Virus record (IMG/VR): IMGVR_UViG_3300032116_000805
Coordinates: 1-32,901 of that record
DNA length: 32,901 nucleotides
From: a virus
Strand: one strand, 5' to 3'
Each line of letters starts with the position of its first letter. Position 1 is the first letter of the stretch. The notes beneath the pieces are model-generated. The model had not been told where the DNA came from. It saw only the letters and a program-made list of their open reading frames with translations, and did not search any database. Shown piece after piece: positions 3,131-32,305 of the stretch. Both the position numbers and the translations under genes were made by a program.

Positions 3131-4243
3131 ATGCGCGGCGAGCTGATCTCCATCGACGTCATCAAGCACGAGCTGCAAAAGCGGCTCGACAGCCTAGTGC
3201 TGCAGCTCTACCCCGCCGCCAAGCTCGACAGCTCCAAGCATAATTTCTGCCTTGGCTCGCTTTCGGGCGAAGCCGGGCAGAGCCTGCGCATTGCCCGCAC
3301 CAGCACCAAACTTGGCTGGTGGAAGGATTTCTCCTCCGGCGAGGGCGGCGACGTGCTGAGCCTCGTCAACCGCGCGCTCGGCCATCGCGACATGACCGAG
3401 ACCATCAAATGGTCGCGCCAATGGCTCGGCCTGGATGGCGGCATGAGCGCAGAGGAGCGCCAGCGCCGCGAGCGGGAGGCCGATCAGGCCAGCCGCAAGG
3501 CCGCGCAAGCCGAGCGCGACGAACGCGAGGGACGCCGCCGCGCGGCGCAGCGCTATTTCCTCGAGGCCGTGCCCATCGCCGGAACGCCGGCGGAACGTTA
3601 TCTGCTGGCACGCGACATTCTGTTTTCGCGGCTCGGCAAATGGCCGGGCGCCCTGCGCTTTCACCCCGGCATGCGCTGCCCGGTGACGCATGCGCCGCGC
3701 CCCTGCCTGCTCGCCAAGGTGGACGGCCCGGACGGCAACCTGATGACGGTGCATCGCACTTTCCTGCTCTGCCACGACGATGGCCGCGTGACCAAGGCCG
3801 ACCAGAAGAATGGCGGGCCCCTGCCCGATGCGAAGGTGGCCTTCGGGCCATATGCCGGCGGGCTGATCTCTGTCTGGAAAGGCCGCACGGGCAAGAGCCT
3901 GCGGCACCTCGAGGCCGGGGAATGGGTGGCCATGACCGAGGGCGTGGAAGATGCGCTGACCATCGCCATGGTGCAGCCGCAGATGCGCGCCGTGGCGGCC
4001 ATTTCCCTTTCGAACCTGAAGAACGTCACCTTCCCCGATCGTCTCGCCGGTCTTTACCTCTGTGCCGATAACGATGTGAAACCCGAGCCGCAGGAAGCCT
4101 TCCGGCGCGCGAAGGCTCAGATCATGAGCCGCGGCATTGCCGTGCGCGAGGTGCGGCCGCCGCCGCAATTCAAGGATTTCAACGACTGGGCCCGCGCGCT
4201 TCGCGCCCAGGAACGCCGCGTGATGCAGCAGGTGCAAGCATGA
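3131..4243 (+). CDS. Toprim-domain phage primase
   Basis: A 370-residue protein of the phage-type primase family that makes RNA primers for phage DNA replication. The N-terminal part (residues about 1-105) resembles the fold that normally carries a CHC2/P4-type zinc finger, ending WWKDFSSGEGGDVLSLV, but the usual zinc Cys residues are missing. Residues about 110-140 are a highly charged helical linker. The Toprim domain follows, with catalytic Glu270 in TEGVEDALT, Asp313 and Asp315 in LYLCADND, and a KDFNDWA motif near the end. It precedes the P-loop helicase in the same operon and probably works with it at the candidate origin near 7040-7320. Confidence 0.85.
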   Translation: MRGELISIDVIKHELQKRLDSLVLQLYPAAKLDSSKHNFCLGSLSGEAGQSLRIARTSTKLGWWKDFSSGEGGDVLSLVNRALGHRDMTETIKWSRQWLGLDGGMSAEERQRREREADQASRKAAQAERDEREGRRRAAQRYFLEAVPIAGTPAERYLLARDILFSRLGKWPGALRFHPGMRCPVTHAPRPCLLAKVDGPDGNLMTVHRTFLLCHDDGRVTKADQKNGGPLPDAKVAFGPYAGGLISVWKGRTGKSLRHLEAGEWVAMTEGVEDALTIAMVQPQMRAVAAISLSNLKNVTFPDRLAGLYLCADNDVKPEPQEAFRRAKAQIMSRGIAVREVRPPPQFKDFNDWARALRAQERRVMQQVQA

Positions 4244-4413
4244 GCGATACCCGCCGCCTGCTCGTGGAGCTGGAAACCGCCGATTACGCCGCGCTCGCGG
4301 CCGCCGCGCAGCGCCGCGGCTGGACGCTGCACATGCTGATCGAACGCCTCCTGACCGAGTGTCTCGCCTCGGAAGTGATGGCCGCCCTGCTCGACGAGGA
4401 CGCCGACGAATGA
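4240..4413 (+). CDS. Small ribbon-helix-helix-like protein
   Basis: A 57-residue protein starting MSDTRRLLVELETADYAALA. The pattern of a short beta strand (RRLLVELE) followed by two helices (DYAALAAAAQRRGW, then LHMLIERLLTECLA) matches Arc/MetJ-type ribbon-helix-helix proteins, which bind DNA as dimers. It is joined to the primase and helicase genes by ATGA overlaps at both ends. A role as a small regulator or DNA-binding accessory of replication is plausible. The family call comes from secondary-structure pattern only. Confidence 0.55.
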   Translation: MSDTRRLLVELETADYAALAAAAQRRGWTLHMLIERLLTECLASEVMAALLDEDADE

Positions 4414-6584
4414 GCGAGACGCCCCAGCTCCAGCCCATCGCCGAAGCCTTTGCCGCCGCCGATGCTGCGGCCGCCGAAGCCGAAGCCAAGCGCGAGGCCA
4501 AGGAAGAAGCGCGCGACAGCGAGGCGCAGGCCCAGATCGAGGCGGAACGCTGGATCCGCGATGTGTATCGCCGTCAGGGCGCGGCCATGGCGCATAAATG
4601 CGGCCGCTCCACCGGCATGGACCGCAACGCCATTGACCGGCTGATCGCGATCGAGGACGAGGCGATCAACGGCAAGGCCGAAAAGGTGAAGGGCAAGAAG
4701 GCGAAGCGGAAGGCCGAGCCGGCCGATGGTGGATCAGCCCCACCGGATGGGCCGCCCGGCGATATTCCGCCGGCTGACGATGAAGAGCCCGATGGGCCCC
4801 GCTTCATCAAGAAGCGCGACCCGGTGAAGGCCTTGCCACCGGATTGCCCGGTGACGCCCGTGGGCTATAACGGCACGACCTGCTACTTCCTCAACCCGCA
4901 TCGCCAGTTGATCCCCATGACCAAGGGCCAGTTCGGCGCGGAAGGGCTTCGCCTTCTGTTCGGAAGCCGGCAAGATTGGCTCTGGGAAGCCTTCCCCAAA
5001 TACAACGAGAAAACCGGCGTGCAATCCGGCTGGAAAGCCGACCAGGCGGCCGAGAGCCTCATCAAGGCCGCCACGGATAAAGGCTGGTTTGATGCGGACG
5101 AGATGATCCGCGGCATGGGCGGCTGGCGCGGCCAGGCGAACGAGCTGGTGCTGCATTGCGGCTCGGCCGTACTCGTGAATGGTGAGGCACACCCGCCGGG
5201 GTTTGTGAACGGTTACCTCTATTCCGCCGGCGTGGCCAGCCAGAAGCCGGCCGACCCGGCCGAGAGCGACGAGGAGCAGCGCCGGCAGAGCGAGGCAGTC
5301 GAAAAGGTGCTCGCCACGTTCGACAGCTACAACTGGCTCGACGGGCCCGGCGATGCTGGCGACATCGAGGCCAGCGAGGCCCGCTGCTTCGCCGCCGACG
5401 TGGACGGATCGGGCCACAAGCTCGCCTCCCTCCTCCTCCTCGGATGGCTGGCAGGATCGCGCCTCGGCGCGGCGCTCGATTTCCGATCCCTCATGTGGAT
5501 CACCGGCGATGCCGGCGCCGGCAAGACCACGCTGCAGCGCATCATCATGGCCATGACCGGCAAGGACATGGTGCAATCGTCGGACACCACGGGCGCCGGT
5601 GTGTATTCCGCGGTGGGCCATTCCAGCCGCCCGGTGATGATCGACGAGGCGGAGCCGGACCCCTTCAAGAGCAAGATGAAGGACCTCATCAACCTCGCGC
5701 GCCAGGCCGCGACGGGCGGCAAGATCCGGCGCGGCTCCTCGAACCATCAATCGGTCTATTTCGAGGCGAAGAGCGCCTTCCTGTTCTCGTCCATCATCAT
5801 CCCGCCGATGCAGGCGCAGGACATTTCCCGCTTCTGCATTCTCGACCTGGGCCCGCTCGGCAAGCGGAAGCCGCTGGCGCTGGACCCCGCGCAGCTCGCC
5901 TATGCCGGCCGCGTAATGCTGCGGCGTCTGGTGGATGGCTGGCACCGCTGGGAAGAGACGCTGCAGGCCTATCGCGCGGCTTTGCAGGAGCAGGGACACG
6001 ATCCGCGCGGTGCCGACCAGTTCGGCGCGCTGCTCGCCGCCTGTGACCTGATGCGCGGCCGGGAGATCGCCCATGCCGACACGATCGACGCCTTCGCCCG
6101 CGCGCTCTCGGCCGAGCGGATGAACGATGCCAACCCGCGCGAGGCCAACAGCCTCTCGATGCTGAACCACCTCATCACCGTGCCGCTCGACGTGTTCCGC
6201 GGCGGCACGCGCATGACGATCGGCGAGCTGGTGAGCATCGGCGCCGGCGTGAGCAAGCCGCGCGACGGCGAGGGCGCTGTCACGGCCAAGGGCTGCCAGG
6301 ACCAGCTTCGCGCCTGGTCGATCTATATTGACGGGTTCCAGACCGCGCAGAGCCGCACCGGAACGGGGGCGCGCGTGATCCTGCCGAACAAGTCGACCGC
6401 GCTCGCGAAGCTTTTCGCCGGCTCGCAATGGTATGCCGAGGGCGGTGCCGCCGGTGGCTGGGCGCAGGCCATGCGCCGCCTGAAAGGCGCGCGGGCCGAG
6501 AAATCCAGCCGGTTCGGCGGCCGCGGGTGGAGCGTGCCCGTGCATGTGTTCCTGCAGAGCGATCTCGAGGAGGGCGGAGAGTGA
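4410..6584 (+). CDS. Phage primase/helicase-type P-loop ATPase
   Basis: A 724-residue protein. After a charged, low-complexity N-terminus (residues about 1-130) comes a region typical of phage/P4-type primase-helicases (for example PKYNEKTGVQSGWK). The ATPase core follows, with Walker A GDAGAGKTT (Lys372) and Walker B-like VMIDEAEPD. A motif RFCILDLGPL follows, then a helical C-terminal region ending in a small winged-helix-like segment. It should act as the replicative helicase, loading at the phage origin and pairing with the Toprim primase upstream. The start at 4410 overlaps the preceding stop as ATGA; a further upstream start is not supported. Confidence 0.85.
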   Translation: MSETPQLQPIAEAFAAADAAAAEAEAKREAKEEARDSEAQAQIEAERWIRDVYRRQGAAMAHKCGRSTGMDRNAIDRLIAIEDEAINGKAEKVKGKKAKRKAEPADGGSAPPDGPPGDIPPADDEEPDGPRFIKKRDPVKALPPDCPVTPVGYNGTTCYFLNPHRQLIPMTKGQFGAEGLRLLFGSRQDWLWEAFPKYNEKTGVQSGWKADQAAESLIKAATDKGWFDADEMIRGMGGWRGQANELVLHCGSAVLVNGEAHPPGFVNGYLYSAGVASQKPADPAESDEEQRRQSEAVEKVLATFDSYNWLDGPGDAGDIEASEARCFAADVDGSGHKLASLLLLGWLAGSRLGAALDFRSLMWITGDAGAGKTTLQRIIMAMTGKDMVQSSDTTGAGVYSAVGHSSRPVMIDEAEPDPFKSKMKDLINLARQAATGGKIRRGSSNHQSVYFEAKSAFLFSSIIIPPMQAQDISRFCILDLGPLGKRKPLALDPAQLAYAGRVMLRRLVDGWHRWEETLQAYRAALQEQGHDPRGADQFGALLAACDLMRGREIAHADTIDAFARALSAERMNDANPREANSLSMLNHLITVPLDVFRGGTRMTIGELVSIGAGVSKPRDGEGAVTAKGCQDQLRAWSIYIDGFQTAQSRTGTGARVILPNKSTALAKLFAGSQWYAEGGAAGGWAQAMRRLKGARAEKSSRFGGRGWSVPVHVFLQSDLEEGGE

Positions 6585-6880
6585 ACGTTTTCACCACGCC
6601 CAAGATCCGCCAAAGCAAGGCCTGCATCTATTGCCGGCACATGCGCATAGGCCAGACCGGCCCGCGCTGCTTCAACCCGCTCTCAATGGACAGCGAAGAG
6701 CGTGCAGCTCTCGGCCCGCTCGGCCACGGATGGAATGGCGCTCTCGCGCGGCTCGCCCGGTGGCACAACACCGCTTGCGGGCGAGACGGCAAGCTGTTCG
6801 AGCCGCGATTGCCCGATCTGCCGCGCAGCGACGAGCAGCACCCGACATGGTTTCAGCGCATCGCACGGAGGTTTGCGTGA
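6581..6880 (+). CDS. Small Cys-rich, possibly zinc-binding protein
   Basis: A 99-residue protein starting at a GTG that overlaps the helicase stop as GTGA, behind a strong AGGAGGGCGGAGA ribosome binding site. The N-terminal part has Cys residues as C-x2-C (KACIYCRHMR) and then one in GPRCFNP; another lies in NTACGRDGK. This spacing could hold a zinc ion. The C-terminus is basic and amphipathic (WFQRIARRFA). The protein closes the replication operon directly before the iteron region, so binding to the origin is conceivable but unproven. The family is not recognised. Confidence 0.6.
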   Translation: MNVFTTPKIRQSKACIYCRHMRIGQTGPRCFNPLSMDSEERAALGPLGHGWNGALARLARWHNTACGRDGKLFEPRLPDLPRSDEQHPTWFQRIARRFA

Positions 6881-7037
6881 CCCCGCATCCCGTCATGCCT
6901 GCCAAGGTGAGCGCGAAGCATTGCGACAGCATTCCGCGCGCGAGCGCCAGCATTGCTTTTGTATTGCCTTGGAACCGCGTGAAAGCAAACAGGTTTTCGC
7001 GCGGATTGTGCCCGGCTGATGCGGGCCGGGGCCAGAG

Positions 7038-7074
7038 CGTCCCGACTGTCCCAACTGAGAAAAAGCGTCCCATC
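7038..7074 (+). repeat. Iteron block A (three GTCCCAAC-type units)
   Basis: CGTCCCGAC (7038-7046) and TGTCCCAAC (7047-7055) are in tandem, then TGAGAAAAAG, then CGTCCCATC (7066-7074). Block D at 7284-7320 is its reverse complement with 31 of 37 positions matching, including the GAAAAG spacer, so the arrangement of two tandem units plus one spaced unit is conserved as a unit. Confidence 0.8.
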
Positions 7075-7109
7075 GTCAGCCCATTGGAAAGCTTGCGCTT
7101 TCGTCGTTC

Positions 7110-7134
7110 TTGGGACGTTGGGACGCTTGGGACG
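7110..7134 (-). repeat. Iteron block B (three TTGGGACG units, inverted)
   Basis: Units start at 7110, 7118 and 7127, with spacing of 8 and then 9 bases. Block C is its reverse complement with the same 8/9 spacing and only one changed base across the 25 positions. Confidence 0.8.
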
Positions 7135-7223
7135 CGGTTTGCCTCACATGACGCATGCGCCCGCACACACGAGGGCAGGCGAGCGGGCGAGCGGGCGCGG
7201 CTACACATACGCGCGCGTGCAGC

Positions 7224-7249
7224 CGTCCCAACCGTCCCAACGTCCCAAT
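7224..7249 (+). repeat. Iteron block C (three CGTCCCAA units)
   Basis: Units start at 7224, 7233 and 7241. The block is the inverted partner of block B and runs straight into the AT-rich core that starts at about 7247. Confidence 0.8.
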
Positions 7250-7283
7250 TATCTATTTCAGATAGATATATCAATAAGTTGAG

Positions 7284-7320
7284 AATGGGACACTTTTCGT
7301 CAGTTGGGACGGTTGGGACG
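7284..7320 (-). repeat. Iteron block D (three GTTGGGAC-type units, inverted)
   Basis: ATGGGACAC stands apart at 7285-7293; after TTTTCGTCA come tandem GTTGGGACG units at 7303-7311 and 7312-7320. It mirrors block A across the AT-rich core and the B/C pair. Confidence 0.8.
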
Positions 7321-7400
7321 CTTGCCGCCATTCCTGTTCGCCCATCGCAAAGCCGCGCGAATAAAATATTGCCGGAAATTCAACGGGATGGGGCGGCGGG

Positions 7401-7988
7401 ATGACGAAAAGCGCGCTGAACTCCGATCTTGCTGTGAGTGCGCGGGCCGCCGGCGCGGCGGCTCCGGCCGCCGAGCAGCTCGACTTCCTCGCGCCGGTCG
7501 CGGAGCGGATCAACCGCGCCGACGCCGACGCCATCGCCGCGAACGCGACCGAGGAGCGCAAGCGCGGCCGCCCGAAAGGTGCCGAGAACCTCTCCTCGCG
7601 CCAGCTTCGCGAGATGCTGATCCGGGCCGGAGGCCATCCGCTGATCCACCTCGCGCGCTGGGCCACGATGACGCCGGAGGAAATGGCCAGGCGGCTCGAT
7701 TGCAAGGTTGTCGAGGCGTTCGACCGGCAGGTCGCCATCTGGGACAAGCTCGCGCCTTACGTCGCCGCGAAGCTCGCGCCGACCGACGAGAAGGGCAACG
7801 CGGTGCCGGGCCTGGTGATCAGCATCGGCGACCAGGCGATCAATGCCGGGATTGGCGTGAGTGCGGGCGGCTCGCCGCCCTGGCTCGCGGCCTATCGCGA
7901 TGCCGAGGGGCGCATCATCGACGGTGTGGAAATTCAAGGGGTTAGCGGATCGCGTGCGGAAAGAGCCGATCAGGAAGGCGGATCATGA
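7401..7988 (+). CDS. Candidate small terminase subunit / DNA-binding packaging protein
   Basis: A 195-residue protein starting MTKSALNSDLAVSARAAG. Residues about 50-60 contain an AT-hook-like KRGRPKGAEN, followed by a helical segment (SSRQLREMLIRAGGHPLIHL and PEEMARRLDCKVVEAFD) of the kind found in small terminases and other phage DNA-recognition proteins. It is the first gene after the candidate origin and lies about 800 bases before the large terminase, the normal place for the DNA-recognition subunit of the packaging motor. The assignment rests on position, the AT-hook and size; sequence identity to a known TerS was not checked. The C-terminus is low-complexity. Confidence 0.5.
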   Translation: MTKSALNSDLAVSARAAGAAAPAAEQLDFLAPVAERINRADADAIAANATEERKRGRPKGAENLSSRQLREMLIRAGGHPLIHLARWATMTPEEMARRLDCKVVEAFDRQVAIWDKLAPYVAAKLAPTDEKGNAVPGLVISIGDQAINAGIGVSAGGSPPWLAAYRDAEGRIIDGVEIQGVSGSRAERADQEGGS

Positions 7989-8290: not shown

Positions 8291-8581
8291 GTGGCGGCTG
8301 CGCTCTCCGGCCTTGCGGGGCAATCCGTCGGCCGCGCTCTCGCGCATGGCTGGTATCCTTACGAGTGCTGCTCGGATCGCGATTGCTACGCCGTGCCGAA
8401 AGAGCGCGTGCGCATCGTGCCCGGCGGCTGGATCATCGACGGATTTGCCGTCAGCCATGGCGAGGCCCGCCCCTCGCCCGATGGCCTGTTTCACATCTGC
8501 CGCACCCAGGACGGCAAGGGTGATCTCATTCGCCCCTACCAGAAGCCGGCCTGTGCCTGGGCGCCGGTGCAGGGAAGCTGA
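8291..8581 (+). CDS. Small secreted Cys-rich protein (HGWYPYECCSDRDC family)
   Basis: A 96-residue protein from a GTG start. It begins with a short hydrophobic leader (AAALSGLAGQSVGRALA) and a likely signal-peptidase site after ALA, then the hallmark HGWYPYECCSDRDC. Further Cys residues follow in ICRTQD and KPACAW, five in all, so disulphides in the periplasm are likely. I recall similar secreted proteins as common in Rhizobiales genomes and their phages, without a known function. The reading frame stays open upstream as far as 8243, with RRLGAAGILV just before the GTG, which would complete a better signal peptide but has no standard start codon. The true start is therefore uncertain. A phage-carried envelope or conversion function is an inference. 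Confidence 0.65.
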   Translation: MAAALSGLAGQSVGRALAHGWYPYECCSDRDCYAVPKERVRIVPGGWIIDGFAVSHGEARPSPDGLFHICRTQDGKGDLIRPYQKPACAWAPVQGS

Positions 8582-8584
8582 GGC

Positions 8585-8794
8585 ATGAAGCGCCAAACCG
8601 TCTCTTTTGGTGAAGCAGCGGCCGGGCTCGAAATGATCCTCGCGTCGCTCAATGGCCGCCCGGTCAACATGCAGCAAACGCTCGATCTCGTGGTCGTCGC
8701 AATGCAGCACCAAATCGCACTGTTGCGCTTTCTCGAGCGCGAGTTCCCCGATGCCGAGAAAATCCGCGATGCCGTGTTCGAGGTGCGCAAGTGA
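8585..8794 (+). CDS. Small unknown protein preceding the large terminase
   Basis: A 69-residue helical protein starting MKRQTVSFGEAAAGLEM, with a hydrophobic but charged middle (TLDLVVVAMQHQIALLRFLE) that looks like an amphipathic helix pair rather than a membrane segment. It starts three bases after the secreted protein's stop, and its own stop overlaps the terminase GTG (GTGA), so the terminase is probably translated by coupling to it. The family is not recognised. A packaging accessory role is possible from position. Confidence 0.6.
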   Translation: MKRQTVSFGEAAAGLEMILASLNGRPVNMQQTLDLVVVAMQHQIALLRFLEREFPDAEKIRDAVFEVRK

Positions 8795-10341
8795 TCTCCT
8801 TCGGCTCCCTCGATGATCGGCTGAAAGGCTACACGGAAGGCGCGGCTTTGCTGCAATCGGCCGGGCCGGTTTCCGATCGCTTCATCCAGTCGCTCGGCGC
8901 GCGCGATCTCCTCAACGGGCCGGTTGGCTCGGGGAAAACCACGGCCTGCATCAAGCGGGCCCTGCTCGCGGCCGTGCGCACCCCGCCGATGATCGGCGAG
9001 CGCGATCCGCAGGGCCGGCCCGTGCGGCGCTATCGCTTGAGCCTGTGGCGCGAGACCTATGCGCAGCTCTGGGGCACCACCATCAAGAGCTGGCAGAAGG
9101 TGCTCAACCCCGACAAGGGCATCGGCGAATGGCAGGGCGCTTCCCCGCGCGCGGCCGTGCATCGCATCACCTTCGAGGATGGCTTCGGCCCGATCCTTTT
9201 CGAGGCGATGTTCTTCGCCTTCGGGGATGATGCCGATCCCGATGATCTCGGCGGCACCGAATACACCGATGCCTATTGCAACGAGCAGGACAAGCTCCGC
9301 GAGGCGCTCTACATCAACCTCGCGCGCTCGGTCGGCCGCTACCCGAACCGGGGAGAGATCGGCCTGCCGGATGACGAGCGCATCGTGCATGGCCGCATCT
9401 TTGGCGATTGCAACGCGCCCGCGCCGGATACGTGGGTTTATCGCGACTGGTGGAGCCCCAAGAAACCGCCGGGCTACCAGCTTTTCCGCCAGCCCGGCGG
9501 CTTTCATGCCGAGGCCGAAAACCTGAAAGCCGTGGGGCGCGGCTATTACAAGCAGCAGCGCGAGGCCAATGCGCACCGCCCGTGGTGGATCCGCGTCAAG
9601 CTCGACAACGAGCCCGGCTTCAACCAGGAGGCCGCAATTGTCTATCCCGATTACGTGGACAGCGAAATGTCGAGCGAAGAGCCGCTTCGCGTCTTCCCCG
9701 AAATCCCGGTCATCATCGGTGCGGATGGCGGCGCGACGCCGGCGGCCGGCCTCCTGCAGGGCATGCCCAACGGGCAGATCCGCACGCTGGCGGAAGTCGC
9801 GCTCGATCGCGGCGACGAGATCACGCTCGGCACGCATCTGCTCGCCATCATGGCGCAGCCGCGCTTCAAGGGTTGCGAATTCTACCTCACGGGGGATGAA
9901 GCCACCTTCGCCGGCGATGACCTGCCCAACGGTTCATGGATCGGCCGGCTCGGCAAAATCCTCGGCCTGAAGCCCAACCGCCCCAGCCTCGGCAACCACG
10001 ACACCGAGGGCCGGCACTTCGCGCTTCGCGATGCGATGAAGCGCCGCGTGGGCAATAACGAGCCCGGCTTCCTGCTCGATGCCAATGCCTGCCCCACCAT
10101 CCGGCGCGGGCTCAACGGCACGTTCAAATATCACGTGACCAAGTTTGGCGAGCGCGGCTCGATCGTGAAGAACCTCGACAGCCATGTCTGCGAGGCCGCC
10201 GAATATGCCGCCGGCGAGCTCGGCCAGAGCCATGCCCGCAAGCGCCGCAACGATCGCCTCGCCGAACGCGCGCAGAAGCGCGCCGAGGCTCAGCGCAACC
10301 CATCGCCCCGCTACAACCCCATCACCCGCAAGCGAGCTTAG
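8791..10341 (+). CDS. terL: Terminase large subunit
   Basis: A 516-residue packaging motor protein that pumps and cuts phage DNA at the portal. The ATPase domain has Walker A NGPVGSGKTTA (Lys49), and the Walker B region is probably near LGGTEYTDAYCNEQD. The C-terminal RNase H-like nuclease domain begins at VIIGADGGATPAAGLL, where the first catalytic Asp sits, with later acidic residues near TGDEATF and HVCEAAEYAAGEL. The basic C-terminal tail may contact the portal. Length and order fit podovirus terminases of the Bcep22/T7-like module. The GTG start overlaps the upstream stop. Confidence 0.9.
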   Translation: MISFGSLDDRLKGYTEGAALLQSAGPVSDRFIQSLGARDLLNGPVGSGKTTACIKRALLAAVRTPPMIGERDPQGRPVRRYRLSLWRETYAQLWGTTIKSWQKVLNPDKGIGEWQGASPRAAVHRITFEDGFGPILFEAMFFAFGDDADPDDLGGTEYTDAYCNEQDKLREALYINLARSVGRYPNRGEIGLPDDERIVHGRIFGDCNAPAPDTWVYRDWWSPKKPPGYQLFRQPGGFHAEAENLKAVGRGYYKQQREANAHRPWWIRVKLDNEPGFNQEAAIVYPDYVDSEMSSEEPLRVFPEIPVIIGADGGATPAAGLLQGMPNGQIRTLAEVALDRGDEITLGTHLLAIMAQPRFKGCEFYLTGDEATFAGDDLPNGSWIGRLGKILGLKPNRPSLGNHDTEGRHFALRDAMKRRVGNNEPGFLLDANACPTIRRGLNGTFKYHVTKFGERGSIVKNLDSHVCEAAEYAAGELGQSHARKRRNDRLAERAQKRAEAQRNPSPRYNPITRKRA

Positions 10342-13432: not shown

Positions 13433-13678
13433 ATGGCCAAGACCAAAGAAACGCCCAATGACGAAGCCCAACGCCTCGCGGCCGAGCAGGCCGCAACCGC
13501 TCAGCAGCTTGACCCTGCCAATATTGGCCCGGAGCCGGACGCTCAGCCGGAGCCGGTTGCCAATCCGTTGCCGATCGACAATCGCAGCCCAGCCGAGATC
13601 CTTGCCGATCCCGGCCGCGCGCTGACCTATGGGGAAATCCTCGATCTCGAGGCGCGGGTGAGGAACGCCGCAGCTTGA
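13433..13678 (+). CDS. Small acidic, Pro-rich unknown protein
   Basis: An 81-residue protein starting MAKTKETPNDEAQRLAAEQA. It opens with a charged helix, passes through a Pro/Glu-rich linker (GPEPDAQPEPVANPLPID), and ends with a short ordered piece (SPAEILADPGRALTYGEILD). Two in-frame ATG codons are adjacent; the second fits the AAGGAA ribosome binding site better. Small proteins of this kind between scaffold and coat genes may be head accessory proteins. The family is not recognised. Confidence 0.6.
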   Translation: MAKTKETPNDEAQRLAAEQAATAQQLDPANIGPEPDAQPEPVANPLPIDNRSPAEILADPGRALTYGEILDLEARVRNAAA

Positions 13679-13934
13679 CAATCCGGGGCAAATCAGCCAG
13701 CCCTTGAAGCCTCGGGAGGAGGCGCGCATCGTCCCTTGATGAGCGCGCCTCTTCTGTCCGCTACCCGGCGCTCCCGACCGGGCCCGACTAGGATGCCGCC
13801 GAATACGGCCGCCGACTGCAGGCGTTAAACGATAGGCGGGCCCGCCATTCTGCACGGTTCGATCCCGTGCGTCTGAGCCGCTACCCGGCCGAAACTGAAC
13901 CAATCCCGTTCACTTTCGATGCCGGAGACATCCC
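13679..13934. other. 256-base untranslated, structured region in front of the capsid gene
   Basis: No confident gene is present. Visible structure: a terminator-like hairpin (13720-13750); a perfect palindrome GGCGGGCCCGCC at 13835-13846; a hairpin CACGG-TTCGATC-CCGTG at 13853-13869 that looks like a tRNA T-arm; and a 12-base direct repeat CCGCTACCCGGC at 13758-13769 and 13878-13889, exactly 120 bases apart. No full tRNA cloverleaf can be drawn. It may be the leader or promoter of the capsid transcript or a small structured RNA. Confidence 0.5.
13720..13750 (+). terminator. Hairpin between head-assembly genes and the capsid gene
   Basis: AGGCGCGC (13720-13727) pairs with GCGCGCCT (13743-13750), with an extra ATC/GAT pairing inside the loop. 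The sequence after it, CTTCTGTCC, has few T residues, so termination would be weak or partial, or the hairpin may stabilise the 5' end of the capsid mRNA. Confidence 0.4.
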
Positions 13935-27413: not shown

Positions 27414-28922
27414 ATGACTGTCACTTCCGAGCTTTCCGCGGTTGAACGCAGCTGGACCGGTGTGGAAACCGTGTTCGACACCGGGTTCAAAGCCCGTGAC
27501 GCCACGCATTGCAGCGTTTCGGTCGGCGCCACCGTGCTCGTGCGCGGCACGCAATACACCAGCGTTCTTGCGGCCGGCGGCGTTCTGCAGATCCTGCCGC
27601 TGGCCGGCATGCCGGCCGCGCCGGCCACGTTGCTCATCGAGCGCGTGACGCCAGCCACCCAGGAAACCGATCTCGTCAATGGCGACACCTGGGATATGGA
27701 GGCATTCGAGCGCGAGCTCGACAGCAATGCCATGCGCGATGCCGAAACCCGGCGCATTTCCAGCCTCGCGAGCAGCGCCGCCACCACTGCGCTGGCGGCC
27801 GCGCAGCAGGCGCTCGAGGGCGTGGTGGCGGCCGTCGCCGGCGTCTCCTTCTTCAATGGGCGCACCGGCAATGTCATCCCGCAGGCCGGCGATTACACCG
27901 CCGCCCAGGTGACGAACGCGGCCGCGACCAATGCCACCAACACCTTCACGGCGGACCAGCAGATTGCCAAGGCCAACCCGACGGCGACCCTCAACAAGGC
28001 CGCATCGGGGCAGGTGAACGCCCTGCGGGGCCTGACCAACAACGTGCTGCGCTGGGCGCTCCGGCTCGGCAACAGCACGGCCGAGGCGGGAGCCAATGCC
28101 GGAAGCGATTACGAGGAAGTCAGCGCCGACGATGCCGGCATCGAGACCGTGCGCCGGCGCGTCCGCCGCTCGGATGGCTACAACACTTTCTTCGGCTCCG
28201 TGGAAATCGGTTCGCCCGGCGCGGGCCATTCGGTGCTGCTGCGGCGCTTCGGCACCACCATCGGCGCCCAGTTCGATTTCGAGATCCCCAGTTCAGGCTC
28301 GGCGCTGAATGGCCCGGTGCGCGTGCGCGTCTTCGGCAACACGCTCGAGATCGCGGAAGGCGGCGGGACGCTGCGCGGCGTCCGCCTCGACCTCACCGCC
28401 GCCGCCGCCAATGCCGCCTCCGATCTTGTGCATGCCGGCAACATCGACGCCATCCTTGGTGCCCGGCTTACGCCAGTTGCTACAACAAGCGGTACGCAAG
28501 TAGATTTTACGAACTTGCCCGCTGGCATTAATGAAATTGTCGTGCCTTTCGATGGGGTTTCCCTGAATGGCACAGATCATTTGCTGGTGCAGATTGGAAC
28601 AAGCAGCGGAATGGAGGTTGCCGGATACGTTTCGACATCGGTACTTGCGTTCGGAGGAAACGGTGTTCAAGCTATTAATAACACAACCGGATTTGTTCTT
28701 TTCGGTGGATCAACTGCAAACATTGTTTCTGGACACATGACTATTCGGCGCATGAGTGGAAACAAATGGACGCAAAGCCATACTAATTTGAGTTCTCCTA
28801 CTTCGGGCCACTTTGGTGCGGGAGTTAAAACTCTTGCAGGCGAAATTACCAGCGTTCGTATTTTGGCAACAGGCGCAAACACATTTGACGCTGGCTCAGT
28901 CAATATCAGCTATACTCGGTGA
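27414..28922 (+). CDS. Tail fibre / receptor-binding protein
   Basis: A 502-residue protein. Residues about 1-110 match the N-terminal domain of T7-type fibres that fixes the fibre to the tail (VETVFDTGFKARDATHCSVS, LLIERVTPATQETDLVNGD, WDMEAFERELD). A coiled Ala-rich part follows (SLASSAATTALAAAQQALEG), then beta-rich shaft segments. From about residue 352 (base 28470) the DNA turns AT-rich and the codons change, encoding a small beta-rich tip (VDFTNLPAGINEIVVPFDGV, GTDHLLVQIGTSSGMEVAGY) of a kind that recurs at the ends of many phage fibres. The tip should bind the host surface; the base change suggests exchange by recombination. Confidence 0.8.
   Translation: MTVTSELSAVERSWTGVETVFDTGFKARDATHCSVSVGATVLVRGTQYTSVLAAGGVLQILPLAGMPAAPATLLIERVTPATQETDLVNGDTWDMEAFERELDSNAMRDAETRRISSLASSAATTALAAAQQALEGVVAAVAGVSFFNGRTGNVIPQAGDYTAAQVTNAAATNATNTFTADQQIAKANPTATLNKAASGQVNALRGLTNNVLRWALRLGNSTAEAGANAGSDYEEVSADDAGIETVRRRVRRSDGYNTFFGSVEIGSPGAGHSVLLRRFGTTIGAQFDFEIPSSGSALNGPVRVRVFGNTLEIAEGGGTLRGVRLDLTAAAANAASDLVHAGNIDAILGARLTPVATTSGTQVDFTNLPAGINEIVVPFDGVSLNGTDHLLVQIGTSSGMEVAGYVSTSVLAFGGNGVQAINNTTGFVLFGGSTANIVSGHMTIRRMSGNKWTQSHTNLSSPTSGHFGAGVKTLAGEITSVRILATGANTFDAGSVNISYTR
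28470..28920 (+). other. AT-rich island encoding the fibre tip
   Basis: Base composition and codon choice change sharply near 28470 within one reading frame: codons such as ATT, AAT, ACA, TTT and GTT become frequent, while the DNA on both sides favours G/C at third positions. The composition returns to GC-rich with the endolysin gene at 28932. This marks a recently acquired receptor-binding module. No terminal repeats or transposase were seen. Confidence 0.7.
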
Positions 28923-28931
28923 GGTAAGGCG

Positions 28932-29669
28932 ATGCGAGCAACCCTCGAAGCCTTCATGCCCACGCTTTACAAGCACGAGGGCGGCTATTCCGACCACAAG
29001 CGCGATCCGGGTGGCGCGACCAATTTCGGCATTACGCTGGCCACGTTGCGCGAGTGGCGCGGGCGCCCCGTGACAAAAGACGATGTGCGCACCATGCAGC
29101 GCAGCGAGGCCGATGCGATCTATCACGCCCATTACTGGAACCGCATCGACGGAGACAGCCTCCTGGCCGGGCCGGATGCGGCCCTGTTCGATGTGGCGGT
29201 CAATTCCGGTGTCGGGCGCGCGCGCCAATGGAAATCGCTGCTGGCGGGGAAGAACGCGGTCGATGGCGTGAAGGCGGTATGCGCCCGCCGCCGCTCCTTC
29301 TTCCGGTCGCTCTCCACCTTCGATGTTTTCGGCAAGGGATGGATGCGCCGGGTCAATTCAGTCGAGGCATGGTCGCTCGCATGGGCCGTGCGCTGGCAGG
29401 GCGGGGCCGTGAAGCCCGTTCTCGAACAAGAGGCATCGCGGGCCAAGAAGCAATCGAACGCCAACGCCGGCGGCGCTGCGGCCACGGGCGGCGGTGTTGT
29501 GGCGGCTCCGCAGGCCGATGCGGTGGCGGGCGCCAACTGGCTCGCGATTGCCGCCGTGGGAGTTCCCATCGCGATCCTGCTCGGCTTCCTGATCTATCAG
29601 GCCGTCATGCAGGCCGACCGCGCAAGGGCCATGAACGCAAAGGCCATGAAGGAGATTGCTGATGGCTGA
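28932..29669 (+). CDS. Endolysin, glycoside hydrolase family 108, with C-terminal membrane anchor
   Basis: A 245-residue muramidase that should cut the glycan strands of peptidoglycan at lysis. The N-terminal catalytic domain has the GH108 signature KHEGGYSDHKRDPGGATNFG with Glu16, then the matching YWNRIDGDSL and FDVAVNSGVGRARQW. A disordered Ala/Gly linker (residues about 175-200) leads to a hydrophobic helix at about 201-225 (WLAIAAVGVPIAILLGFLIY) and a short charged tail. The anchor is at the C-terminus, not a signal-arrest helix at the N-terminus. It should stay on the cytoplasmic side until the holin acts. GAGGTAAGG precedes the ATG. It heads the lysis genes and overlaps the holin-like gene by 8 bases. 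Confidence 0.85.
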   Translation: MRATLEAFMPTLYKHEGGYSDHKRDPGGATNFGITLATLREWRGRPVTKDDVRTMQRSEADAIYHAHYWNRIDGDSLLAGPDAALFDVAVNSGVGRARQWKSLLAGKNAVDGVKAVCARRRSFFRSLSTFDVFGKGWMRRVNSVEAWSLAWAVRWQGGAVKPVLEQEASRAKKQSNANAGGAAATGGGVVAAPQADAVAGANWLAIAAVGVPIAILLGFLIYQAVMQADRARAMNAKAMKEIADG

Positions 29670-30377: not shown

Positions 30378-30653
30378 ATGCCTGCACCCGACCGCTTCGG
30401 CCTTTCGCGCCTGGAGCTGCACAGCCCTCTCGCCATCGGCTTTCCCATCACGCCGAATGACAGCAACGATCTTTCCCAGATGACGCGGGAAATGTTCTTC
30501 GCCGGCGCGGGCAATGTGCGCGTGACCTGGGCCGGCCAGCCCGATGGCACGTTCTCCACCCATGCCGTGCTCGCCGGCGAGCGTGTCGCCTGGCGCGTGA
30601 GCCGCGTCTGGGCCACCGGCACCACGGCCACCGGCATCGAGGGCTTTGCATGA
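30378..30653 (+). CDS. Spike base protein family (gene transfer agent rcc01079-like)
   Basis: A 91-residue protein starting MPAPDRFGLSRLELHSPLAI. The end VSRVWATGTTATGIEGF and the middle FFAGAGNVRVTWAGQPDGTF match the short beta-rich spike base family first described from the Rhodobacter gene transfer agent (RCAP_rcc01079). Such proteins attach head or tail spikes. The gene lies before the SGNH-like spike protein and overlaps it by ATGA, which fits a base plus spike pair. Family recognition is from memory of the conserved C-terminal motif. Confidence 0.65.
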   Translation: MPAPDRFGLSRLELHSPLAIGFPITPNDSNDLSQMTREMFFAGAGNVRVTWAGQPDGTFSTHAVLAGERVAWRVSRVWATGTTATGIEGFA

Positions 30654-32305
30654 TGATCGGCCCCACCGTCACGATCGGCCGGCGCCGCCGTCGCAGCGGC
30701 GGCGGTGGCTCGCTGCCCGTCGTTCCTCTCGGTGGGCTGATCACATTCTACGGCGACGGCACCGGCTCGGAAGGCGCGGCCCCGGGCGTGCGCAACTGGC
30801 CAGCCTGGGCGCTGCAGGCCATGGGCGGCAGCATCATGCCATCCGAAGGATGGATGCAGTGCAAGAGCGGAGAGACGCTCGACGGCGTTTTTGCCCGCCG
30901 GGACGCGGCGCTGAAACAGGCTCCGAATATTTTCGTTTACGCTTCCGATGGCCACAATGACGGCCTGAAAAGCTCGGGATGGTCCGCTCAATTCACCAAG
31001 TGGGAACGCAACCTCGATGCGGTTGTGGCGGGGCTGCCGAGCACGACGCGCATCGTCGTCATGCCCACGCTCTGGACATCCGTATCAGGCGAGACCACGG
31101 GCGGCAACTGGCAGCAGATCGTGCGGGATGCGCAGGTGGCCAAGGTGACGGCGCTGCAAGCCATTCATGGCGCGCGCATCATCCTGTTCAACTGGTGGAC
31201 GGCAATCAATAGCTTCGGCCCCTATGACTTCACGACCGGCGCGAACGCTTCGGATAACAATGTGCATGCCAACGCATTCGGCGGCTGGACGCTCGGCAAC
31301 ATGCTGGCCGAAATCCTGAAGCCGCATATCACCACCGCGACCACGGATGCGATCCTCGCGGATGCCGCAGCCAAGACGTGGCGCGGCGCGAACATCTATG
31401 CGGAGCGGGCCTATACCGGAACGACCGGCGCATTGGCAGGCGGCGTCGCCCCGACGGGCCAGGTGGCCACGACGCATACCCTGACCAACAACCTCGCGAA
31501 CGGCACGGGCGTAACGGTCACCGCCGCCAAGGTGGCACAATCGGGATACGATCAACAGAGGATTACCGTTTCCGGAACGCCCGCCGCCGCGCAGACCATT
31601 CGCTTTGCCCGTTCGAGCAACATGACGATCACCGGTGGAGCGCCCGGCACCTATTTCGCCTTCATGTGTGGGCTGCGCATCGAGAACGGTTCGGGCGGAC
31701 CTGCGGCAGGCCTCGATAATTTCGGGCTATCTCTTGGCTCGCCTAACGCGCTCTTCTCGAACGCGAACCTTGGCGCTTTCGGTTTCTCCAATCCTCTTCC
31801 TGCGGTCATCGACGGCGTATTCCTGTGCCCGCCCGATGCCTGGTTCGCGAATGACACAGCGGTTGCGCCGCCGACGCTGGATTTCAACTTCGATGCTGTC
31901 GCTCTCTCTGCCCAGATCACGATCGAGCGCCCGCAGGTTTTCCAGCTTTACACCAATGCCCGCACGGCGCCCTGGTATATCGGCGACGATACGATCGTCG
32001 GCGCCAACTTTCAGGCGCGCTTGACGGGCACCGGCGTCACGGGCGCCGGCCTGCCATCTGCCGGCACCATCACCGCCGCCACGGTCACCACGGTGCGCGT
32101 GGAGCCCGGCAACTGGTCTGGCGGCGGACTGACCTTCTCGCGCGTGATGCGCCGCAATGGTGCGGTTGTATCCGGCGCATTCTCGACCGGCTGGACCTAT
32201 GCAATGGGCGGGCAGGTAGTGGCCGGTGATGTCATCGCGATTGATGTGACCGCGACGAACAGCTTCGGCTCGGAAACGCGCACGCTCACCTTCAACGTGG
32301 TTTGA
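30650..32305 (+). CDS. SGNH-fold tail spike-like protein with degenerate active site
   Basis: A 551-residue protein. After an Arg-rich N-terminus (IGRRRRRSGGGG) comes an SGNH-hydrolase fold with block I GLITFYGDGTGSEG, block III ASDGHNDGL (Asn103) and block V SDNNVHANAFG (His206). The catalytic Ser of the normal GDS motif is Gly37 here, and the Asp of D-x-x-H corresponds to Asn203, with Asp202 beside it. It may therefore bind rather than cleave a surface sugar or ester. From about residue 245 onward a jelly-roll-like beta part and a C-terminal Ig-like part (VTTVRVEPGNWSGGGLTFSR) follow. The spike base gene is immediately upstream. Adjacent ATG codons at 30650 and 30653 are both usable. Confidence 0.7.
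   Translation: MMIGPTVTIGRRRRRSGGGGSLPVVPLGGLITFYGDGTGSEGAAPGVRNWPAWALQAMGGSIMPSEGWMQCKSGETLDGVFARRDAALKQAPNIFVYASDGHNDGLKSSGWSAQFTKWERNLDAVVAGLPSTTRIVVMPTLWTSVSGETTGGNWQQIVRDAQVAKVTALQAIHGARIILFNWWTAINSFGPYDFTTGANASDNNVHANAFGGWTLGNMLAEILKPHITTATTDAILADAAAKTWRGANIYAERAYTGTTGALAGGVAPTGQVATTHTLTNNLANGTGVTVTAAKVAQSGYDQQRITVSGTPAAAQTIRFARSSNMTITGGAPGTYFAFMCGLRIENGSGGPAAGLDNFGLSLGSPNALFSNANLGAFGFSNPLPAVIDGVFLCPPDAWFANDTAVAPPTLDFNFDAVALSAQITIERPQVFQLYTNARTAPWYIGDDTIVGANFQARLTGTGVTGAGLPSAGTITAATVTTVRVEPGNWSGGGLTFSRVMRRNGAVVSGAFSTGWTYAMGGQVVAGDVIAIDVTATNSFGSETRTLTFNVV

Follow-up and report, generated by a model that had tools for sequence, protein, structure and literature searches.

The SaPI protein Rep recognizes iterons located directly downstream of its own gene, apparently as two hexamers, and in SCCmec the short direct repeats downstream of the D5-type helicase Cch2 are bound by the C-terminal domain of the helicase (PMC7581432). 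In Streptococcus phage Sfi21, a 302-bp element works as an independent origin that is activated by infection (PMC6356513), and SV40 T-antigen assembles as a pair of SF3 hexamers, head to head, at a single origin (PMC9894130). Here, we describe an array of short repeats in a 32,901-nucleotide stretch of viral DNA (IMG/VR record IMGVR_UViG_3300032116_000805), which was analyzed in full and is referred to as the window. We consider it probable, at roughly 0.78, that the array is a phage replication origin used by the phage's own self-loading helicase. This is the best reading because of the annotated origin of Sfi21, the iterons of SaPI Rep and the fold of the window helicase; the array would be kin to origins of the SaPI and Sfi21 kind, with binding and replication presumed. 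A preliminary description of the sequence had also proposed an origin, and this is still the best-supported interpretation of what is a widespread class, with the mirrored layout recurring beside relatives of the helicase and beside VapE helicases, including at the annotated Sfi21 origin. The further suggestion of an under-described class of origin does not stand, as the class already has known analogues in the origins of SaPI, Sfi21 and P4.

The array occupies positions 7038-7320 and is composed of 12 units of the GTCCCAAC type in four blocks of alternating orientation, A (+), B (-), C (+) and D (-), in agreement with the preliminary description. Its parts are as follows.

7039-7074, plus strand: block A, three direct units at 7039 (GTCCCGAC), 7048 (GTCCCAAC) and 7067 (GTCCCATC); mirrors block D
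7109-7133, minus strand: block B, three inverted units at 7109, 7117 and 7126, spacing 8/9; mirrors block C at 24 of 25 positions
7134-7224, no strand: central B-C core with the dyad axis (7179), 73% GC
7202-7221, no strand: alternating purine-pyrimidine tract TACACATACGCGCGCGTGCA, 20 bases, Z-DNA-prone as judged by its sequence, inside the B-C core
7225-7249, plus strand: block C, three direct units at 7225, 7234 and 7242, spacing 9/8
7250-7284, no strand: AT-rich stretch, 77% AT, candidate unwinding element between blocks C and D
7286-7319, minus strand: block D, three inverted units at 7286 (TGGGAC), 7303 and 7312

Unit spacing is 9 and 19 in block A, 19 and 9 in block D, and 8/9 in blocks B and C. 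The mirror relationship between A and D holds, although the 31 of 37 matching positions given for it were recounted as 32 (best 37-mer), and the arms extend further, with 7036-7086 pairing with 7272-7322 at 80% over 51 nt. The B/C arms (7110-7134 with 7224-7248) match at 24 of 25 positions (96%, 25 nt), in agreement with the shared 8/9 spacing and single changed base that had been noted. Both pairs are nested inverted repeats around a common axis at exactly 7179.0. This axis falls in the GC-rich gap between B and C. The AT-rich stretch that had been called a core is confirmed between C and D but is not the center of the dyad. Within the B-C core lies a feature that the preliminary description had missed: the tract at 7202-7221 is the one place in the window where purines and pyrimidines alternate over 15 bases or more.

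Window-wide, the bare octamer shows no enrichment, with 17 matches at up to one mismatch against 18.8 expected. It is the clustering that stands out: the array scores 8, and 200 dinucleotide shuffles of the full window reached 6 at most. A repeat conserved purely at the protein level had been raised as a possible refutation and is ruled out because the units occur in both orientations and at spacings of both 8 and 9. An Rfam search gave no match, and GC skew across the window shows no clear turning point at the array.

The array is located in a non-coding gap (6881-7400) with the helicase operon upstream and a presumed small terminase gene downstream. The genes around it are listed below.

1540-2253: CI-like repressor, weak S24 match
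3131-4243, plus strand: DUF7146-Toprim primase (PF23639, 6.5e-22; PF13362, 1.4e-14; phrog_510, 2.5e-39)
4359-6584, plus strand: P-loop helicase of 741 aa, presumed initiator with a predicted SF3/D5-like fold (phrog_21086, 1.9e-74; PDB 7ola, E 1.8e-8)
6581-6880, plus strand: 99-aa Cys-containing ORF between helicase and array, without family match
7401-7988, plus strand: presumed small terminase subunit (terS), assigned by position only, from a family directly upstream of terL in relatives; without PHROG match
8791-10341, plus strand: large terminase subunit (terL; phrog_2, 3.9e-8)

Past the array, the gene order is presumed terS, terL, portal, capsid and tail genes. GC content drops to 48% at 28501-29000, near the tail fiber/endolysin boundary of a genome that is otherwise 60-70% GC, and a lipase-like gene (phrog_6102, 3e-19) occupies 30650-32305, where the late region ends. 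The order varies among relatives: in L132 and L126 terS and terL flank the replication genes, the array keeping its place next to terS, and in L012 a NusG/antiterminator-like gene (3799-4455; phrog_6386, 5.5e-17) separates array and terS. The array had been said to follow the primase-helicase operon directly; it does sit in the gap after the helicase, 455 bp from the helicase stop, with the 99-aa ORF in between. No homologue of this ORF was detected near other arrays, and it is therefore unlikely that the 99-residue Cys protein binds the units. The primase and the helicase are the sole early proteins conserved across arrays.

An AlphaFold2 model of the window helicase was built from 58 sequences (pLDDT 84). 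Its best fold match in the PDB is 7ola, the SaPI5 primase-helicase, which is related to the Rep helicases that recognize iteron origins a short way downstream of their own genes. Poxvirus D5/E5 and NrS-1 follow, and these matches place the modeled helicase in the SF3/D5-type AAA+ class. At the sequence level, no full-length match to the family was found in the PDB, Pfam gave no match for the window helicase and few weak AAA matches among its 58 relatives, and hhalign aligned only 40 columns of the family with VapE (PF05272-like) at a probability of 5%, indicating that the two are not homologous by profile comparison. A fold search of the modeled C-terminal domain against the PDB returned no match below E 1.

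Relatives were gathered by helicase alignment and not by the repeat, giving 80 loci plus 10 others, or 90 in total. Approximately 60 of the 90 show the mirrored layout with differing units, whereas about 30 have no array by any caller. The automatic caller assigned a score of at least 5 within 1 kb past the helicase stop to 32 of the 90 loci, all of them above 100 shuffles each, while regions inside the helicase gene, used as a control, never scored above 2. When whole loci were called, 50 of 90 had an array, and 33 of these 50 fell between -50 and +900 bp of the helicase stop compared to 4.6 expected. With the six-base frame assigned by hand, we counted 25 distinct six-base units among 42 helicases of less than 95% identity. 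Units seen in the helicase-led scan include GCGTGAG, TGTTGCA, TGTCCCG, GTTAGG, GGTTTC, GTTGAC, GTCGCT, GGTTCT, GGTGTC, GTAGCG, TGTTCC, GTTACC and GGTGTG. Spacing in the inner blocks is 8-9 in 84 of 91 intervals, and in the outer blocks mostly 11-12 (41 of 69; range 8-13). The full set of four blocks was called in 19 arrays. Orientation alternates strictly in 11 of them, and the two arms of these 11 are nearly equal, with a median difference of 1 bp that is matched by 2% of shuffled pairings. Bacterial genomes held out from this analysis yielded clear arrays at four of nine loci, plus a partial GTCCCA array in L271, despite short flanks; in one of the four clear arrays (L267) the successive spacings are 11, 12, 42, 8, 9, 56, 9, 9, 42, 12 and 11. 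What is conserved is the layout, while the unit changes; these arrays are not defined by GTCCCAAC. When annotated phages and plasmids were searched with the array by BLASTN, nothing useful emerged because units and spacers diverge, and further scans for close relatives using L142 or L098 added nothing new.

The alternating tract is likewise shared. The longest alternating run of the whole locus (~11 kb) falls in the core of ~70 bp at 27 of 33 loci, and the longest run of the core surpasses that of 95% of random windows of its locus in 29 of 33 arrays. By comparison, the longest run falls in the core in only 10 of 27 VapE arrays. Where the caller had failed, use of the tract as a blind anchor revealed ten further arrays, in 10 of 16 cases compared to 4 of 120 random positions. 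Mean AT content is 61% in the C-D spacers of the relatives and 35% in their loci. In the window, the mirrored sets of units flank a GC-rich alternating core, with the AT-rich stretch off to one side between C and D, and the central element of the window helicase family is an alternating CG/CA tract. A Z-form of this tract would be a propensity only, as read from its base composition and order.

The search for GTCCCAAC arrays beside primase-helicases that had been proposed did find arrays, mainly in VapE phages and with the octamer in the opposite sense. Scanning viral contigs for GTCCCAACNGTCCCAAC, which detects this one unit only, identified 64 loci, 45 of them with mixed-orientation clusters and mostly VapE phages; at most clusters a primase-helicase gene, usually of VapE type, ends 7-50 bp before the array. 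On one contig (L063), GTCCCAAC arrays at 8545-8634 and 13581-13693 mirror each other in orientation and are separated by 5 kb, and one of them directly follows a DUF927-like primase-helicase, and the genomes matching the long mirrored GTCCCAAC pattern (L069-L079) are all alphaproteobacterial and nearly all Acetobacteraceae. In VapE phages such as L029 and L169, GTCCCAAC has the opposite sense to that in the window, with the inner blocks directed at the core, suggesting that the shared octamer is a coincidence. As a universal element GTCCCAAC is rejected, given the other units seen in the helicase-led scan. The mirrored layout is present in 27 of 74 VapE helicase relatives. Arrays directly follow VapE-type helicases in LPPA36, StAB, ACF1, Bob, Lactococcus phage 56701, RapA and RcKeef, and an array lies beside the helicase gene in Acjo_20. 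The array of Sfi21 coincides with a feature annotated as 'origin of replication, 302 bp non-coding region', a stretch after the putative primase with mirrored pairs in the order AGTTACTTAGTTACT, AT core, GTAACTAAGTAAC; for function, this phage provides the strongest anchor. In another Streptococcus phage, D1024 (NC_070684, ~3950-3990), an apparent Nextera transposon adapter (CTGTCTCTTATACACATCTCCGAGCCCACGAGAC) is found inside a duplicated copy of the origin region and is probably an assembly artefact.

A different function would follow if TerS rings, made from the gene just downstream, bound the short repeats and TerL cut near the dyad, making the array a packaging start site (pac/cos). We regard this as unlikely, even though the gap between array and presumed terS is 15-130 bp at most loci of the window helicase family, including those whose array is 1-5 kb away from the helicase. 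In both L132 and L126, the helicase gene is more than 2 kb downstream of an array that adjoins terS. Outside this pattern, which most of the window family fits, the array does not stay with terS. In Acjo_20 terS is at 42.4 kb and the array at 3.1-3.3 kb; StAB, Bob and RcKeef have arrays of the same plan with terS elsewhere; the annotated cos site of Sfi21 is 6 kb from its array; and in L012 the array lies 13 bp after the helicase and more than 800 bp before terS. The regions displayed for Acjo_20, StAB, Bob and RcKeef contain no terminase gene, and their arrays are right next to the helicase gene. The unit tracks helicase similarity (AUC 0.86), with which primase and TerS similarity are also correlated. 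Unit distance shows a partial correlation with TerS similarity (p 0.006), but the sign is wrong in the same/different variant of this test, and in the window family helicase and TerS similarity are too collinear to separate (r 0.87) and give contradictory signs, so that only single cases are informative. One such case is L141 and L146, which share a unit and have a helicase similarity of 0.78 with unrelated TerS (0.14). Against the origin reading, unit changes are not accounted for by similarity in any one part of the helicase over another; sliding-window covariation of helicase regions with unit changes gave no localised signal and singled out no specificity domain.

It is also improbable that the array is an operator or promoter region for the late operon just downstream, bound by a repressor or activator. 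Its position at the early/late boundary upstream of terS and the CI-like repressor encoded by the phage would suit such a role; however, conservation across arrays extends to the primase and helicase and to no early regulatory gene, 12 units over 280 bp with a shared dyad far exceed the usual operator, and the next genes in StAB, Bob and Sfi21 are not late genes. Arm sites for an integrase/excisionase or other recombinase, which mixed direct and inverted short sites resemble in outline, are very unlikely given the linkage to helicase and primase and the lack of an integrase family among the genes conserved beside arrays.

If the array is an origin for the self-loading helicase, the initiator, most likely the 741-aa helicase itself, would bind the units of 6-8 bp. 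The common axis of the four blocks could position a pair of helicase assemblies on opposing arms and in opposite directions, in the manner of the double hexamers of SaPI Rep and SV40 T-antigen; it is by analogy with these that a double-hexamer step is proposed. Opening of the DNA may be helped by negative superhelical strain at the alternating CG/CA core and at the AT-rich stretch beside it, after which the helicases would thread onto single strands, the Toprim primase would lay primers, and replication would proceed both ways. More doubtful, though possible, is that these arrays form an origin class of fixed geometry (four blocks, one dyad, inner spacing 8-9, outer mostly 11-12) in which the recognition word changes freely and the conserved alternating CG/CA core switches to a left-handed (B-Z) or hairpin form when replication initiates, replacing an AT-rich melting center in high-GC phages.

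Origins are almost never annotated in the large set of uncultured phages, and a sequence rule for locating them would be to look close to primase-helicase genes for mirrored blocks that enclose an alternating run. Dozens of natural unit variants on one scaffold make a change of recognition word by the helicase directly testable, as is whether such changes allow a phage to escape cross-titration by resident prophages. For unusual DNA structure, the conservation of the alternating core likewise raises a testable role in the replication of a bacterial virus.

Among the known systems, the SV40 T-antigen origin serves as a working model and as an analogy only, coming from a eukaryotic virus with a differing protein architecture and site sequence. 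SCCmec Cch2 has only three 5-nt iterons. In satellite phage P4, crr lies directly after the alpha primase-helicase gene and contains iterons of 8 bp, both direct and inverted, at a spacing of 9 bp; however, the P4 unit is GGTGAACA, there are two separated cis regions (ori1 and crr), and no four-block shared-axis dyad or alternating core was noted. With the unit GTCCCAAC rather than GGTGAACA and a single array, the window does not belong to the P4 alpha/ori class. The SaPI Rep/ori systems (SaPIbov1, SaPI5) resemble the window in having short iterons downstream of the gene for a self-loading helicase, a likeness in arrangement. The SaPI5 primase-helicase is the closest fold to the window helicase at about 10% sequence identity. 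The window differs in that its alternating core is rich in GC and its primase and helicase are encoded by separate genes. Like the window array, the Sfi21 origin/PER element is ~300 bp of non-coding DNA near a helicase (in Sfi21, directly after the putative primase gene), with mirrored pairs of short units at a spacing of 8 around a core and further copies outside. It differs in its unit (GTTACT), its VapE-type helicase and a core that is entirely AT, and the 73% GC core of the window is unlike the AT-rich centers of either SaPI or Sfi21.
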